The translations under genes and the position numbers were made by a program. Source: Labrys monachus (GTDB taxonomy: Bacteria > Pseudomonadota > Alphaproteobacteria > Rhizobiales > Labraceae). From it: a stretch of 64,000 nucleotides of DNA. The notes beneath the pieces are model-generated. The model had not been told where the DNA came from. It made no database searches and saw only the letters and a list, made by a program, of their open reading frames with translations. Within the stretch, counting starts at the first letter, position 1. Each line of letters begins with the position of its first letter. The stretch lies in NCBI RefSeq assembly GCF_030814655.1, contig NZ_JAUSVK010000001.1, forward strand, positions 2,747,501 through 2,811,500, read 5' to 3'. Positions 30,458 to 49,596 of the stretch are shown piece by piece.

Positions 30458-31063
30458 ATGGCTCGCCCCAGGCAATTCGACGAAACCGCCGTTCTCGACA
30501 GGGCGATGCAGCGTTTCTGGGAGCACGGCTACGAAGCGACCTCGGTGCGCGATCTTGCCGAAGCCATGGGGTTGACCGGCGCCAGCCTCTACAACGCTTT
30601 CGGCGACAAGCGCGCTTTGTATCGGCGGGCCCTCGATTTCTATATCGAGAACAGTTTCGGCGACCGGGTCCGCCGCTTCGAGGGCCGCCTGGCGCCGCGG
30701 CAGGCCATCGGTGCGTTCTTCGACGAGATCGTCGAGCGTTCCTGCGATGCCGGGCGCCGGGGCTGCATGCTCGTCAATTCGGCGCTCGAAGTCGCGCCTC
30801 ACGACCCGGAATTCCAGCATGCGGTTGCCGACGTGCTCATGCGCATCGAGGCCTTCTTCCGGCGCTGCGTCGAGGCGGGCCAGAAGGACGGCACCATCAC
30901 GAGCGCCCAGAGCGCCGAGGATCTCGGCCGCCTCCTGATGGGCGTCCTCCTCGGCATACGCGTCCTCGCCCGCGCGCGGCCCGATCGCGACCTGTTCGAA
31001 GGTCTCCTCCGGCCGGTTTTCTTCCTCCTCGATCTCCCCATGAAAGGAGCGATCCAGCCATGA
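30458..31063 (+). CDS. TetR family transcriptional regulator
   Basis: Regulator of 201 aa. The N-terminal helix-turn-helix is MARPRQFDETAVLDRAMQRF and HGYEATSVRDLAEAMGLTGASLYNAF (residues about 22-47). The C-terminal domain is the TetR_C_33/AcrR-like type with GRRGCMLVNSALE near residue 105. The Cys in this block could sense electrophiles, which would fit control of the two flanking GST genes; this is inference. Its stop overlaps the next GST start by ATGA, so the two are coupled. Confidence 0.87.
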   Translation: MARPRQFDETAVLDRAMQRFWEHGYEATSVRDLAEAMGLTGASLYNAFGDKRALYRRALDFYIENSFGDRVRRFEGRLAPRQAIGAFFDEIVERSCDAGRRGCMLVNSALEVAPHDPEFQHAVADVLMRIEAFFRRCVEAGQKDGTITSAQSAEDLGRLLMGVLLGIRVLARARPDRDLFEGLLRPVFFLLDLPMKGAIQP

Positions 31064-31764
31064 TCGAACTCTATTACTGGCCGACGCCCAACGGGCACAA
31101 GATCACGCTGTTCCTCGAAGAGGCCGGGCTCGACTATCGGATCCATCCGGTGGACATCAGCGCCGGTGACCAGTTCAAGCCCGATTTCCTGGCGTTCTCG
31201 CCGAACAACCGCATGCCGGCGATCATCGACACCGCACCGGCCGACGGCGGCGAGCCGATCAGCGTGTTCGAGTCGGGCGCCATCCTGCTCTATCTCGCCG
31301 AGAAGACCGGCCGGTTCCTGCCGGCCGATGTCAGGGGGCGCAAGACCGTCACCGAATGGCTGTTCTGGCAGATGGGCGGTCTCGGCCCGATGGCCGGGCA
31401 GAATCATCATTTCGGCACCTATGCGCCGGAGAAGCTGCCCTACGCCATCGCGCGCTACGTCAACGAGACCAACCGCCTCTACGGCGTCCTCGACCGCCGG
31501 CTGGCCGGGCGCGCCTTCATCGCCGGTGACGACTATACGATCGCCGACATGGCCGCCTATCCCTGGATCGTGCCGTGGCAGCGCCAGCAGCAGAGGCTGG
31601 AGGATTTTCCCGACCTTCACCACTGGTTCGAAGCCGTCGGCGCCCGCCCGGCGACCATCCGCGCCTATGCCAGGGGCGAGCCCTATCGCAGCCGCCCCAC
31701 CGTCACCGAAGAGGGAAAGAAGATCCTGTTCGGGCAGACGGCGGCGAATGCCGGCCGGCGCTGA
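31060..31764 (+). CDS. Glutathione S-transferase family protein
   Basis: A 234-residue GST of the YfcG/YghU-like type. It starts MIELYYWPTPNGHKITLFLEE, with FSPNNRMPAIIDT near residue 48 and VFESGAILLYLAEKTGRF; the C-terminal domain has GRAFIAGDDYTIADMAAYPW. It is a paralogue of the GST at 29540. The start overlaps the tetR stop by four bases (ATGA), so regulator and enzyme are co-translated. A role in glutathione-dependent detoxification or disulfide reduction is likely; the substrate is unknown. Confidence 0.87.
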   Translation: MIELYYWPTPNGHKITLFLEEAGLDYRIHPVDISAGDQFKPDFLAFSPNNRMPAIIDTAPADGGEPISVFESGAILLYLAEKTGRFLPADVRGRKTVTEWLFWQMGGLGPMAGQNHHFGTYAPEKLPYAIARYVNETNRLYGVLDRRLAGRAFIAGDDYTIADMAAYPWIVPWQRQQQRLEDFPDLHHWFEAVGARPATIRAYARGEPYRSRPTVTEEGKKILFGQTAANAGRR

Positions 31765-31816: not shown

Positions 31817-32683
31817 TCATGCCGCCGCGCGCCGGCGGGCCGCGTCGAGCAGGACTTGCGCCGCCTCGGCCTCGCGGCGCAGCACCGGCCATTGCGGAAC
31901 GTCGTTGTCCCATTCGACCAGGCTCGCCACCGGGCCCGTCCTCGCCAGCAATGCCTCGTAGAGGGCCCAGACGGGGTCCTTCACCGGCGTATCGTGCGAA
32001 TCGATCAGCAGCGGCGCCCCGATGTCGTCGACCGTCTCGGAATGCCCGCTGAGATGGATCTCGCGCACGGCCCCGACGGGAAAGGCGGCGAGATAGCTGC
32101 GCGGATCCTGCCCGTGATTGGTCGAAGCCACGAAGACGTTGTTGACGTCGAGAAGCAGGCCGCAGCCGGTGCGGCGCACGATCTCGGCGAGGAATTCCGT
32201 CTCGGGAATGGTGCTCTCCTCGAACAGGAGATAGGTAGCGGGATTTTCGAGCAGCATCTGCCGCCCGAGGCAGTCCTGGACCTCGTCGATATGCGCGGCG
32301 ATGTGCCGGAGGGTCTGCGCCGTATAGGGCAGGGGCAGGAGGTCGTTGAGGAAGACGGTGTCATGGCTCGACCAGGCCAGATGCTCGGAAAAGCTCTCCG
32401 GCTCGTAGCGGGCGCACAGCGTCTTCAGCCGGGCGAGGTGGTCGCGGTCGAGCGGCTGCGTCGAGCCGATCGACAGGCCGACGCCGTGGATGGAGAGGGC
32501 GTAGTCCTCGCGCAGGCGCCCGAGCTGGGCATGGGGCGGCCCGCCGGCACCCATATAGTTCTCGGCATGCACCTCGAAGAAGCCGATCGGCTGCGGCCCG
32601 GCATTGATCGCGTGGAAATGCTCTGGCTTGAAGCCGACGCCGGCGCGGCGGGGGAGCTGTGAAGGTTTCTGGGACGGTTTCAT
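31817..32683 (-). CDS. bufB: DUF692/MNIO family enzyme, bufferin maturase BufB-like
   Basis: A 288-residue TIM-barrel protein of the DUF692 (multinuclear non-heme iron-dependent oxidative, MNIO) family, related to MbnB. The metal-ligand blocks are all visible: [68 protein letters not shown] and [10 protein letters not shown]. Family members modify cysteines of short precursor peptides, giving thiooxazole-type rings in bufferins. It lies downstream of two DUF2282 precursor genes on the same strand. The usual DUF2063 partner (BufC) is not found beside it. Confidence 0.88.
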
Positions 32684-32754
32684 GGTGGACCTTTCGGGAT
32701 CGCCGGAAAGGCGGCGCGGCATCGCCGCCGCACCGCCTGCTTGTCGTCGGCCCC

Positions 32755-33036
32755 TCAGGCCGGGGCCTTGCCCTGGGTCAGGGAGCCGTGGCCGTTCGGC
32801 GTCGTGATCGAGGTGCAGGTACCGGCCGGCACCAGCTTCCAGGAATTTTCCTGGTAGTCGATGCGGGAGGTGCCGGCACAGCTCGTGCCCGGGCCGGCGG
32901 CACAGTCGTTCTGTCCCTTGAGGGCAACGCCGTAGCACTTTTCCTTGCCGGCGGCCTGGGCCGGGGATGCGGCGCCCAGCAAGGCGAGGGCGGTGGCGAG
33001 AGAAGCCGCGAAGGCGACGGCCGGGACACGGGTCAT
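32755..33036 (-). CDS. bufA1: DUF2282 bufferin precursor, second copy
   Basis: A 93-residue exported precursor. Residues 1-28 are a signal peptide ending SPAQA. The mature part has four cysteines, Cys34, Cys45, Cys53 and Cys74, in the DUF2282 pattern [18 protein letters not shown], then [10 protein letters not shown] and VPAGTC. Family knowledge: DUF2282 proteins are BufA1 bufferins, long RiPP precursors whose core cysteines are modified by BufB and which bind copper in the periplasm. The ATG at 33036 with GGAG upstream is preferred over a start five codons earlier. It is 42 bases downstream of the first copy. Confidence 0.88.
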
Positions 33037-33078
33037 GATCAGCTCCAACAAGGGGTAAATCGGTCGGCCGAGCCTGAA

Positions 33079-33354
33079 TCAGGCCTTGCCGGGCATCAGC
33101 ATGCCATGGCCATGCGGCGTCTTGATCGTCTTGCAGGTGCCGGCCGGGACGAGCTTGAAGGACTGCTTGTCGTAGCTGATGGTCGAATGGCCGGCGCAGT
33201 CGTGCGAGCCGGCGGCACAGTCGTTCTGTCCCTTGAGGGCGACGCCGTAGCACTTCTCCTTGTCGGCGGCCTGCGCCGCGACGGGGGCGACGGCCGCAGC
33301 CAGGGCGGAAACGAGCGAGGCAGCCAGGGTGACGGTAACGAGGCGACGGTCCAT
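33079..33354 (-). CDS. bufA1: DUF2282 bufferin precursor, first copy
   Basis: A 91-residue exported precursor; the signal peptide ends VAAQA at about residue 29. Mature cysteines are Cys35, Cys46, Cys53 and Cys74, with the same [18 protein letters not shown] block as the second copy, then [13 protein letters not shown] and [16 protein letters not shown]. The extra histidines (His51, His56, His81, His83) are not all in the second copy. It is the first gene behind a SigF-like promoter at 33404-33429 and has GGAGAGA before the ATG. Expected to be modified by the DUF692 enzyme. Confidence 0.89.
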
Positions 33355-33403: not shown

Positions 33404-33429
33404 TACGGCGGGCGGCGGGCGGATATTAC
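33404..33429 (-). promoter_or_regulatory. SigF-type ECF promoter for the bufferin operon
   Basis: On the minus strand, GTAATA (33424-33429), a 16-base spacer and CGTA (33404-33407). The -10 ends 49 bases before the first precursor ATG. The pattern equals the one before the sigma-factor gene (33488-33513) and resembles the Caulobacter SigF consensus that I remember as GTAACC-N16-CGAA. Confidence 0.65.
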
Positions 33430-33487: not shown

Positions 33488-33513
33488 GTAACGAAGCCGG
33501 GACCCGGATCGTA
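33488..33513 (+). promoter_or_regulatory. SigF-type ECF promoter for sigF-nrsF
   Basis: GTAACG (33488-33493), a 16-base spacer and CGTA (33510-33513), 14 bases before the GTG start of the sigma factor. Matches the -35/-10 pattern at 33404-33429 on the other strand, which implies autoregulation and shared control. Confidence 0.68.
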
Positions 33514-33526
33514 GAAAGGACAGCGC

Positions 33527-34084
33527 GTGCATAGCCGTTCGCGCGAAGAGGAGTGGGCGATATGGATGCGGGCCGCGATCGCCGGCGATGCCGGGGCCTA
33601 TCGGCGTTTCCTGGAAGCGGTGACGCCGCGTGTGCGGGCGATGGCGCGCCGGCGCTGCGAGCAGTTCGGCGCATCGGCGGGCGATTGGGAGGATGTGGTG
33701 CAGGAAGTGCTGCTCACCATCCACCTCAAGCGCGGCACCTGGGACCAGACCCGTCCGATCGGTCCGTGGATCTCCACCATCGTGCGCAACAAGCTGATCG
33801 ATTCGCTGCGCCGCCGCGGCCGCCGGGTCATGGTGCCGATCGAGGACGTCGTCGACACCCTGGAAGCGGAAGCGCCGGCGGACAGCCTCGATCCGCGCGA
33901 CCTCGATCGCATGCTCGGCCACCTGAAGGACCAGCAGCGCATGATCGTGAAATCGATCTCGGTCGAGGGTTCCAGCATCCGCGAGACGGCGGATCGGCTG
34001 CGGATGACGGAAGGAGCCGTGCGCGTGGCGCTGCACCGGGCCCTCAAGGCGCTCGCCGCCTTCTATCGGAGTGATGCGGGGTGA
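33527..34084 (+). CDS. sigF: ECF sigma factor, SigF-like
   Basis: An extracytoplasmic-function sigma factor of 185 aa. Region 2 has DWEDVVQEVLLTIHLKRGTWD followed by IRNKLIDSLRRR-like text (TIVRNKLIDSLRRRGRR, residues about 85-101), and region 4 has SSIRETADRLRMTEGAVRVALHRALKAL (near the C-terminus). The GTG at 33527 has AAAGGA 7 bases upstream. It is followed by a four-base overlapping nrsF gene. In Caulobacter, SigF-NrsF governs a metal and oxidative stress regulon that includes DUF2282 and DUF692 genes, matching the divergent operon here. Confidence 0.88.
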   Translation: MHSRSREEEWAIWMRAAIAGDAGAYRRFLEAVTPRVRAMARRRCEQFGASAGDWEDVVQEVLLTIHLKRGTWDQTRPIGPWISTIVRNKLIDSLRRRGRRVMVPIEDVVDTLEAEAPADSLDPRDLDRMLGHLKDQQRMIVKSISVEGSSIRETADRLRMTEGAVRVALHRALKALAAFYRSDAG

Positions 34085-34716
34085 AGACGGACGATCTCAT
34101 CAAGGCCCTCGCCGAGGACACGACGGTGCGGTGGCGATTCGGCAGCATCCTCGCTGGCGCGACGGTGGTCGGCGCCCTGGTCGCGGCGGCGATCTTCTTC
34201 GCTGGCATCGGCTTTCGGCCGGATATCGCCCATGCGGTGGAAACCGCGCGCTTCCTGTTCAAATTCGTGGTGACGCTGGCGCTGGCGATCGCCGCGATCG
34301 GCCTCGTCGCGCGGATCGGCCGGCCGGGTGTCCCGGCCGGTCGCTGGGGCCCGGCGCTCGCCGTCGCACCGGTCCTGCTCGGCGTCGCGGTGATCGCCGA
34401 GCTTGCGGTCATGCCGCCCTCGACGTGGGAGGCGCGCTGGATCGGCACGAACGCGCCCTATTGCCTGAGCCTGATTCCGCTGATGGCCGCCGGGCCGCTG
34501 GCCTGCATGCTCTTCGTGCTGCGCCAGGGCGCGCCGCAGAGGCCGGGGCTGAGCGGCGCCGTCGCGGGACTTGCCGCCAGCGGCATCGCAGCTACCCTCT
34601 ATGCCTCTCACTGCCCGGACGACAGCCCGCTCTTCGTCGCCACCTGGTATCCGATCGCGACCGGGATCGTGGTGCTGGCCGGATATCTGCTCGGCCGCCG
34701 CCTGCTGAGGTGGTGA
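34081..34716 (+). CDS. nrsF: NrsF-type anti-sigma factor (DUF1109)
   Basis: A 211-residue inner-membrane protein with about six membrane segments, DUF1109 family. The start MKTDDLIKALAEDT is typical. Cys128 (NAPYCLSLIPL) and Cys178 (YASHCPDDSPLF) look like the two conserved cysteines that family members need to release SigF under stress. The GTG start overlaps the sigma-factor stop (GTGA). The protein should hold the sigma factor at the membrane until metal or oxidative stress. Confidence 0.87.
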   Translation: MKTDDLIKALAEDTTVRWRFGSILAGATVVGALVAAAIFFAGIGFRPDIAHAVETARFLFKFVVTLALAIAAIGLVARIGRPGVPAGRWGPALAVAPVLLGVAVIAELAVMPPSTWEARWIGTNAPYCLSLIPLMAAGPLACMLFVLRQGAPQRPGLSGAVAGLAASGIAATLYASHCPDDSPLFVATWYPIATGIVVLAGYLLGRRLLRW

Positions 34717-47958: not shown

Positions 47959-49250
47959 CAGCGCGCATCCCGGATGGCGAGCGCTACCAAGGCAAGGATG
48001 GCGGCCGGCACTGCCTTGACCAGGGGGCCGAGCGGGTCGGCCCACAGATCCGGTGCGAATGCCGATCCGGCAAGCAGATAGAAAAGCGTGACGGCCATCA
48101 TGCCGACGGCCGCGGCCGGCATCGATCGCCGTATGAGCATGGCGGCACCAAGCGCGATATCGAGGAACGCCCCGCCATGCACGGCCAGGCTCGCAATAGG
48201 CGCGGACAAGCCGTGTGTGACAAGAATCGACTCGGCGCGTCCGGCTCCGATGAGGCCGACGATGCCGGACACCAACCAGAACAGGCCGAGCGTGATGATG
48301 ATCACCGGCTTGAGCATGAACAAGCGGGCGAACCAGCGTTCCCGCGCCGACCCGTCGATGACGCTCAGCGTCTCGTCCAGGCTCCTCAACGGCCGGTGGA
48401 TGACGTCTCGAAGTGGCCGCGGATCGCCGTCGATGCCCAGCATCGTCTGCCGGAAGGCGGTCGATCGCAAAGGCGGATGCCAGCCGAGCCAGCCGGCCAG
48501 ATCTCCAAGCCCGAACAGGACGCGGAAGATAGCCGCGGGCCAATGGACTATCGGCGCAGAGGGAAAGCCGAGCCTCGCCCGCAGCCGTCGGACGACATCG
48601 TCAAGAGCGTGCGCCTCCTCTTCGACGAGATCGTAGCTGCGGCGGAGCGGCAGGCTCCCTTCGAGGGCGGCGAGCGCCATCTCTGCCACGTCCTGAAGCG
48701 CAACCGTGCGGATTGCCGGCGCCCGTGGCAGGGCGATCAGGCCCGGCATGCCCGCCAGCGCGTGCAGCATGGCGCTGCCGCCATAGACCTGCGCCCCGAG
48801 CACCAAGCCAGGGCGAAGCACGATCCACTCGAATGCGCATGCGCTCAGCGCTTCGTCGGCGAGACCCTTGCTGCGCATGAAGACGGTCTGCGCCACGGAG
48901 GAGGCGCCGACGGCGGAGATCTGCACGAAGCGTCCGATCCTGGCAGACTCGCATGCTTGGAAGAGCGCTATCATCGCATCCCGCTGCACGGCCATGACAT
49001 CGTCACCCGGCCCGTCCTGCAGCACCCCGGATGCATTGATCACGGCATCGATCTCGTGGAGAAGCGGGATCCATGCCTGCGGTACGACGAGAGTTTTAAG
49101 GTCATGCTGGAGCCAGCGTACCGGGGGGCGGCGGCGTCTCGCCTCGGTCACGTCTCGGCCAAGACCCGTCACATCGTGACCGGCCGCCAGCACGGCGGAA
49201 ACCACCGACGATCCGATGAGACCGTATCCGCCCAAGATGAGAACACGCAT
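47958..49250 (-). CDS. SDR-like dehydrogenase fused to DoxX-type membrane domain
   Basis: A 430-residue fusion. The N-terminal half is an NAD(P)-binding Rossmann domain (MRVLILGGYGLIGSSVVSAV, then DAVINASGVLQDG and FVQISAVGASSVAQT). A linker of about 100 residues follows. The C-terminal 130 residues form four membrane segments of DoxX-like type (MLKPVIIITLGLFWLVSGIVGLIG, LAVHGGAFLDIALGAAMLI, AAVGMMAVTLFYLLAGSAF, LVKAVPAAILALVALAIRDAR). The ATG at 49250 is used. It is translationally coupled to a DUF2269 protein. This fusion is a known but functionally uncharacterised architecture. Confidence 0.82.
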   Translation of the reverse strand: MRVLILGGYGLIGSSVVSAVLAAGHDVTGLGRDVTEARRRRPPVRWLQHDLKTLVVPQAWIPLLHEIDAVINASGVLQDGPGDDVMAVQRDAMIALFQACESARIGRFVQISAVGASSVAQTVFMRSKGLADEALSACAFEWIVLRPGLVLGAQVYGGSAMLHALAGMPGLIALPRAPAIRTVALQDVAEMALAALEGSLPLRRSYDLVEEEAHALDDVVRRLRARLGFPSAPIVHWPAAIFRVLFGLGDLAGWLGWHPPLRSTAFRQTMLGIDGDPRPLRDVIHRPLRSLDETLSVIDGSARERWFARLFMLKPVIIITLGLFWLVSGIVGLIGAGRAESILVTHGLSAPIASLAVHGGAFLDIALGAAMLIRRSMPAAAVGMMAVTLFYLLAGSAFAPDLWADPLGPLVKAVPAAILALVALAIRDAR

Positions 49251-49596
49251 GGATCGTGATTGCCTTGTTTGGGAGGAGGTGGCAAGGCGCAGCATGCCTA
49301 TCACGACGCCGCTGGCCAACATATCCGCACCGGGTCTCTTTTGCGTCGCGCAGACAAGGGAGACGACCGCGATTGCACAGATAGAGAGGTCACCTTCATG
49401 AGGTAAATCGGAATATAGTTTAGAATATATCCAATGAGTGGATCCTCATCCTTTAACTGGAGTAATTACAAACAACAATGTGAAGGCGCGCGGTGGAAAA
49501 CATCTCCCATCGACATTGATAAAATCGCGCATGGGTTTACCCCTCCGGCAGCGCCGCCTGGGGCGGCCGTTGCAGATACATTTGACAGGAGTTCGC
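49251..49596. promoter_or_regulatory. Divergent control region before the iron-type importer
   Basis: This 346-base gap is locally A+T-richer between 49400 and 49520 than the genome average and probably holds promoters for both neighbours. TTTAGAA at 49419-49425 matches a half-site of the rhizobial Irr iron-control element, but the expected second half is degenerate. I find no supported gene; a short plus-strand frame starting at 49434 lacks a plausible ribosome-binding site. Confidence 0.4.

Follow-up and report, generated by a model that had tools for sequence, protein, structure and literature searches.

How does a bufferin maturase work when the gene for its usual partner is not beside it? 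The question is raised by a locus of Labrys monachus in a window of 64,000 nucleotides, the whole stretch of DNA that was analysed, corresponding to C1:2747501-2811500 in a genome (G000) assembled as one contig, C1, of 6.92 Mb with a completeness of 100. On the minus strand of the window, this locus (locus I) opens with two genes for Buf1/DUF2282 bufferin precursors, bufA_a (33079..33354; 91 aa; PF10048 81.4 bits, cut-off 22.4) and bufA_b (32755..33036; 93 aa; 89.5 bits, same cut-off). By direct reading of the translations, both precursors, and a third, bufA_c, introduced below, contain four cysteines. The N-termini of bufA_a and bufA_b, read by eye, look signal-peptide-like, with a charged start, a hydrophobic stretch and an AxA-like end. 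On the same strand there follows bufB (31817..32683), encoding an MNIO/DUF692 bufferin maturase of 288 aa that matches PF05114 (MbnB_TglH_ChrH) with 353.4 bits (cut-off 25) and the BufB equivalog NF050167 of NCBIfam, 'MNIO family bufferin maturase', with 386.6 bits (cut-off 310). Scores so far above their cut-offs make chance a non-issue. The maturase is of ordinary length with a single Pfam domain, and nine of its residues, H66, H101, E146, D179, N182, H210, D228, H230 and E257, are invariant across the rows of a BufB alignment and identical in an alignment to 3BWW; we take these to be the MNIO metal ligands.

Downstream of bufB, where relatives have bufC-doxX, lies a convergent GST gene (31060-31764, plus strand) that ends 52 bp from it. 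Divergent from bufA_a are genes for a sigF-like ECF sigma factor (33527-34084, plus strand; Sigma70 r2 and r4) and the anti-sigma-F protein NrsF (34081-34716, plus strand), which scores 187.1 bits with PF06532 and falls under the NCBIfam NrsF equivalog cut-off (97.8 versus 300). The spacer between bufA_b and bufB (32684..32757, minus strand) can form a strong hairpin of -37.5 kcal/mol (z -2.0 versus shuffles). Within the window no RNA family was found at gathering thresholds, nor any tRNA.

A sequence-only reading of this stretch had described the tandem four-cysteine precursors, the same-strand MNIO gene with its metal-ligand motifs and, in place of an adjacent DUF2063 gene, an oppositely oriented GST gene; all of this was borne out. 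The sigF-nrsF pair was absent from it. For the missing partner it had offered two answers, a BufC encoded elsewhere or an enzyme that works alone.

The missing partner gene and the second locus

Whole-genome profile searches with Pfam families at E 0.001 returned one MNIO protein, that of the window, three DUF2282 precursors and one DUF2063 protein. The sole DUF2063 gene lies at C1:6440522, 3.66 Mb from bufB, and matches PF09836 with 87.9-89.6 bits (cut-off 27.2). The genome search for such a gene that the sequence-only reading had proposed was thus successful, and of its two answers the first, a BufC elsewhere, which it had not itself located, stands, while the second gained no positive support.

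The gene belongs to a second locus (locus II), described here in coordinates of the surrounding sequence piece L002 (C1:6.44 Mb; L002:9965-9990 is C1:6439964-6439989). Three genes stand there on the same strand: bufA_c, the third DUF2282 precursor (L002:10139-10420; 81.7 bits), bufC, encoding a full-length DUF2063 partner of 255 aa (L002:10511-11278), and doxX (L002:11325-11819). Nowhere in this genome does a bufC directly follow bufB, as it would in a bufABC operon. The roughly 90 bp between bufA_c and bufC contain a strong hairpin (L002:10418-10512; 11-bp perfect stem, z -3.8 versus shuffles), which could set the ratio of precursor to partner.

BufC scores 48.6 with the NCBIfam HvfC model, below the cut-off of 142. 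As phmmer found no match for it among PDB sequences at E 0.01, fold comparison was used. Its AlphaFold2 model (mean pLDDT 91.9) matched, at E <=0.001, only chain A of TglHI (8hi7, 8hci) and NGO1945 (3dee), over most of the chain; both structures are described as MNIO partners in PMC12452194. As modelled, BufC is a DUF2063 domain with a C-terminal RRE-like domain.

The genus-mates G001-G003 share this neighbourhood of sox genes, argC and then ltaE, and their buf genes in it are arranged as bufA-bufB-bufC-doxX. Locus II is bufA_c-bufC-doxX at this shared place, without bufB, and its products are closely similar to those of G001-G003 (BufA_c 86-88%, BufC 72-73%, DoxX 78-81%, ArgC 82-83% identity). 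The BufC of this genome has that of the genus-mates as its sister group (support 100/100), and is 72-73% identical to theirs but no more than 55-56% identical to those of the named loci described below. Judged by synteny and phylogeny, BufC is native to the genus and locus II is the ancestral place of the genus operon, minus bufB. No convincing bufB remnant was found at locus II (best stray match, to the window BufB, E 0.70), nor any convincing bufC or doxX remnant between 27 and 36 kb of the window, where the best stray match was to the genome's own BufC (E 0.048, 27% over 97 aa). In a fourth genus-mate, G004, the operon lies at another place and is of a different, divergent type (BufB 62%, BufC 45%). 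G004 also carries, away from its bufB, a DUF2282-like sequence in two frames (L104:1406-1610, on G004:C11) that looks like a broken stray precursor.

That bufC and bufB were each lost by misassembly is extremely improbable: the genome is a single contig with a completeness of 100, the losses lie at different places and in copies of different lineage, and neither gene has left a detectable remnant.

How unusual the arrangement at locus I is can be judged from relatives of the window BufB, of which the best 80 loci out of more than 588 were fetched and compared. By profile, bufC is present in the same locus in all 80 of these best matches; its frame starts within 200 bp of the bufB end in 76 and within about 1 kb in the other four. 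In L161, L167, L171 and L184 the two genes are about 0.7-1 kb apart, leaving room for an extra gene, for which the 'adjamnio-VI' genes mentioned in PMC12452194 may be compared. According to the sequence-only reading, its interpretation would be refuted if relatives had a DUF2063 gene beside bufB that was lost only here. For the locus this is what was found (80/80 among the best 80 of more than 588); for the genome it does not hold, as bufC is present elsewhere.

The split is also rare in broader samples. Both families occur in 108 of 199 genomes sampled from the order, and in 107 of the 108 an MNIO gene has a DUF2063 gene no more than 2 kb away at least once; among 212 genomes sampled from the class, with a limit of 3 kb, the figures are 87 and 86. 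Two genomes (G000 and G043) are common to both samples, giving 193 genomes with both families, and the sole exception among them, with no adjacent pair, is this genome. Lone MNIO genes without a nearby DUF2063 in other genomes are mostly divergent MNIOs or lie at contig ends, and in such genomes there is either a further adjacent pair or no DUF2063 gene at all. Low-scoring divergent MNIO genes of this kind in G220, G317, G386, G234, G353 and G368 are candidates for enzymes with other partner types or for partner-free enzymes. Three further MNIO genes look interrupted, one being split into two matches (G165:C113:6135-7289) and two having a stop inside (G310:C8:36556-37365 and G401:C30:109434-110228). 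According to PMC12452194, 27 of 4072 genomes with DUF2282 have an MNIO without a PME-type 1 gene. No description of a genome with its sole MNIO and sole partner at separate loci was found in the openly available literature that was searched.

Could the window BufB nevertheless be partner-independent, modifying bufA_a and bufA_b alone while bufA_c-bufC-doxX persists as an idle relic? It would suit this idea that bufC and bufB do not share a transcript, and that a SigF-type promoter present before bufA_c in G001-G003 is gone here. However, the enzyme scores as a standard BufB without an extra domain, relatives keep bufC in the locus (80/80 of the best 80 of more than 588), and the bufC of this genome is intact, with a confident fold and under purifying selection. 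Moreover, HvfB, a studied close relative, is reported to be inactive without HvfC (PMC13419390). By analogy, self-sufficiency would set this BufB at odds with what has been learned about such enzymes, and we regard this explanation as very unlikely. A partner-free MNIO was dropped as the leading reading given the genomic bufC at an argC-side locus syntenic with the genus-mates. A partner that is missing beside an enzyme should not be mistaken for partner independence.

Descent of the two loci

Unlike BufC, the maturase resembles proteins from outside the genus. Among the best 80 of more than 588 relatives, the closest come from Rhizobium, Shinella and Ciceribacter, the top Rhizobium BufBs being 81-84% identical to that of the window, compared with 67-71% for G001-G003. 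The nearest matches of the precursor bufA_a are first bufA genes in Rhizobium-type clusters; the best of those spanning the full length are 60-71% identical across about 88 aa (70.8% in L124, for example). For bufA_b, the second bufA in Rhizobium rhizogenes OV677 (L116) gives 73% identity across 93 aa. Two bufA genes in A-A-B order occur in 16 of these best 80 loci and a divergent sigF-nrsF pair in 44; the gene order in the window is that of Rhizobium, nrsF-sigF / bufA-bufA-bufB-bufC-doxX, minus bufC and doxX.

In a tree of 60 BufB sequences (46 of the 80 named loci, nine loci of the order sample, four genus-mates and the window), the window BufB nests inside a Rhizobiaceae group with support of 98/86, 99/87 and 99/92, and a clade uniting it with the genus-mates is rejected (p-AU 0.031, lnL 36.6 lower). 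Without recourse to trees, BufB and BufC were also compared in 67 pairs, after duplicates had been dropped, which gave 817 locus pairs with a BufC identity of at least 45%. Among these 817, BufB-minus-BufC identity is lowest in the three pairs of this genome with a genus-mate (-0.049, -0.019 and -0.015), while the 786 pairs without this genome have a minimum of -0.009 and a median of 0.155; other pairs at comparable BufC identity have BufB identities of about 0.85-0.87. Expressed as distance ratios, the pairs of this genome stand at 1.24, 1.07 and 1.09 against a maximum of 1.19 elsewhere, so that just one exceeds it. In sliding windows, BufB is nearer to Rhizobium than to the genus-mates in 13/13 and BufC nearer to the genus-mates in 11/11. 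The window BufB has evolved somewhat faster, being closer to outgroups than the genus-mates are in just 14 of 63 comparisons, and this acceleration is much smaller than the identity gap. Collectively, these comparisons strongly suggest that the window BufB is not an orthologue of the genus-mates' BufB.

Might the genus's own bufB instead have moved beside sigF and evolved fast, without any second operon? In a tree restricted to order-sample loci, without the named relatives, a clade of the window BufB with the genus-mates is left unrejected (p-AU 0.339), NrsF groups with the genus-mates, if weakly (81/76), and sigF-nrsF occupies a partly syntenic place in the genus. Against this stand the identities of 81-84% to Rhizobium and 67-71% to the genus-mates, the wider tree, in which BufB nests in the Rhizobiaceae and the genus-mate clade is rejected at p 0.031, and the match of the whole A-A-B set with its divergent sigF-nrsF to Rhizobium clusters. 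Simple relocation of the native bufB, disfavoured once the named relatives joined the tree, is considered decidedly unlikely.

The regulatory genes bear on how two operons came to be in one genome. The SigF proteins of the window, the genus-mates and the Rhizobiaceae form one group (100/95), within which a clade of the window and genus-mates alone is not rejected (p-AU 0.164). An ApbA-type gene (46.5-47.4 kb in the window) keeps its side and relative orientation with respect to sigF-nrsF in G001-G003. Together with the grouping of SigF and NrsF, its position fits a genus ancestor that had both a sigF-linked Rhizobium-type operon and an argC-side operon, followed by complementary losses. G001-G003 would have lost the buf genes of the sigF-linked operon, and the present genome bufC-doxX from the sigF-linked operon and bufB from the argC-side one. 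Later acquisition of the Rhizobium-type operon in this lineage alone is possible. Among 354 matching plasmid records, ten carry BufBs 80-90% identical to that of the window, from Rhizobium, Shinella and one Roseateles record, making plasmids a plausible route of transfer; the GC content around locus I resembles that of its neighbourhood, and composition thus offers no hint of transfer. About 13 kb from nrsF, the window also encodes an NAD-binding/epimerase protein with a C-terminal DoxX_3 domain (47961-49445, minus strand), a homologue of which is found near sigF-nrsF in G001.

SigF-type promoter motifs at both loci

In Caulobacter, SigF is reported to control two bufferin operons and itself via GTAACC-N16-CGAA-like promoters (PMC3511200). 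In Rhizobium-type clusters the interval from sigF to bufA contains GTAAC-N17-CGTA in both orientations (for example L115, L117, L118, L120-L123 and L137). In the window, GTAACG-N16-CGTA (33488..33513, plus strand), an exact instance of this pattern, faces sigF, and GTAATA-N16-CGTA (33404..33429, minus strand), with one mismatch, faces bufA_a; the same variant precedes bufA in L116. The exact pattern GTAAC-N17-CGTA has 5 sites in the 6.92 Mb genome, against 27 for a reversed control pattern, and three of the 5 belong to buf loci: one precedes sigF, one lies ahead of bufA_c but is directed at argC, and one coincides with the bufC stop codon. The binomial probability of three in five is 3.5e-9, for a pattern partly learned from these same loci.

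Of the two sites at locus II, one (L002:9965-9990) is a perfect motif; in each of the four genomes with this neighbourhood (G000 and G001-G003, the latter L100-L102) it is oriented towards argC and away from bufA. The SigF response may extend to argC. G001-G003 have a second, overlapping motif that points towards bufA. This forward site is gone from locus II here, and none with two or fewer mismatches was found before bufA_c-bufC. The other site (L002:11275-11300) overlaps the bufC stop codon, its end lying 24 bp short of the doxX start; this suggests that doxX has a promoter of its own, and the site would serve that gene only. Thus, the motifs link SigF to both loci, and the SigF of locus I may contribute to the control of both.

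Proposed pairing in trans and comparison with known systems

The reading that we hold with good confidence is that of a Buf1 bufferin system, a copper-binding RiPP pathway, whose maturation genes are split over two loci, the remnants of two once-complete operons, with BufB and BufC pairing in trans. The Rhizobium-type operon at locus I would have lost bufC-doxX and the genus's own argC-side operon at locus II its bufB, the BufB of the former now pairing with the BufC of the latter. Before export, the precursors, probably all three of them, would be presented by the RRE domain of BufC to BufB, and the iron centre of this enzyme would convert the two central cysteines to thiooxazoles, and the modified products would pass Sec and buffer copper in the periplasm. 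On balance, though with more reserve, we also favour the specific proposal of a natural hybrid holoenzyme, in which a Rhizobium-type BufB and a native BufC encoded 3.66 Mb away form one pair that matures bufA_a, bufA_b and bufA_c.

Alternatively, the whole system may be decaying after two independent losses, with neither locus making modified bufferin. Both operons are incomplete and the forward SigF-type site before bufA_c has been lost. Nevertheless, all the needed parts (A, B, C and DoxX) are present at least once in intact frames, and the genes missing from one locus are those kept at the other, a pattern that selection on one set would be expected to leave. The dN/dS of bufC against the genus-mates is about 0.19-0.25, like that of argC (0.22-0.24), with about 0.12-0.16 for bufA_c and about 0.15-0.18 for bufB against Rhizobium; values of about 0.2 or lower for all three indicate that all parts are kept. 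Decay is therefore thought unlikely. BufC shows no sign of co-adaptation to a Rhizobium-type BufB, with two sites changed towards Rhizobium and six away.

If the hybrid pair is real, BufB and BufC would be able to assemble without being co-translated from one operon, and their pairing would withstand the replacement of the lost BufC by a surviving one with about 55% identity to it. Work on HvfBC describes no product when either HvfB or HvfC is omitted, and no activity when the separately made proteins are mixed, whereas co-expressed or fused proteins work; the heterodimer itself is reported to arise only on co-expression (PMC13419390). Since HvfB and HvfC, the relatives studied in most depth, were active only when co-expressed or fused, a naturally split pair makes trans assembly and partner exchange testable. 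In PMC12668002, FonB and FonC are described as forming a stable heterodimer, and MNIO enzymes and their PME1 partners as almost always neighbours. Here a sole MNIO and a sole PME1, far apart and of different descent, would allow assembly of the complex in trans, and the specificity of recognition between enzyme, partner and precursor, to be tested with natural sequences from one genome. They also illustrate how duplicated RiPP operons can be reduced to a single pathway of mixed origin.

The closest described parallel is the Caulobacter Buf1 operon, sigF-nrsF / CC3254-CC3255-CC3256-CC3257, which, as presented in PMC3511200 and PMC12452194, likewise has a DUF2282 precursor, BufB, BufC and DoxX, with sigF-nrsF beside the precursor and GTAAC-type promoter elements. 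In the present genome, by contrast, a distance of 3.66 Mb separates bufC and doxX, accompanied by a third precursor, from the bufB locus, and the maturase and its partner differ in lineage. Rhizobium-type clusters (L115-L117, L120-L127, L130 and L137) share the gene order and tandem precursors of the window, with BufBs 81-84% identical to its own in Rhizobium rhizogenes, R. lusitanum and similar species, but have bufC-doxX after bufB, whereas the bufABC-doxX operons of the genus-mates (G001-G003; L100-L102) share the place of locus II beside argC but hold bufB between bufA and bufC. Tandem bufferin precursors are not new; PMC12452194 mentions tandem precursor genes, and several precursors with one MNIO-partner pair. 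HvfBC, which makes oxazolin, and FonBC, which makes fontiphorin, are described as heterodimers of an MNIO and a DUF2063-RRE protein acting on a signal-peptide precursor (PMC13419390, PMC12668002), to which the present system is likened from its genes; those pairs are encoded together, whereas that of this genome would have to meet in trans. The system is thus of a known kind, and new in its split, mixed-lineage form.
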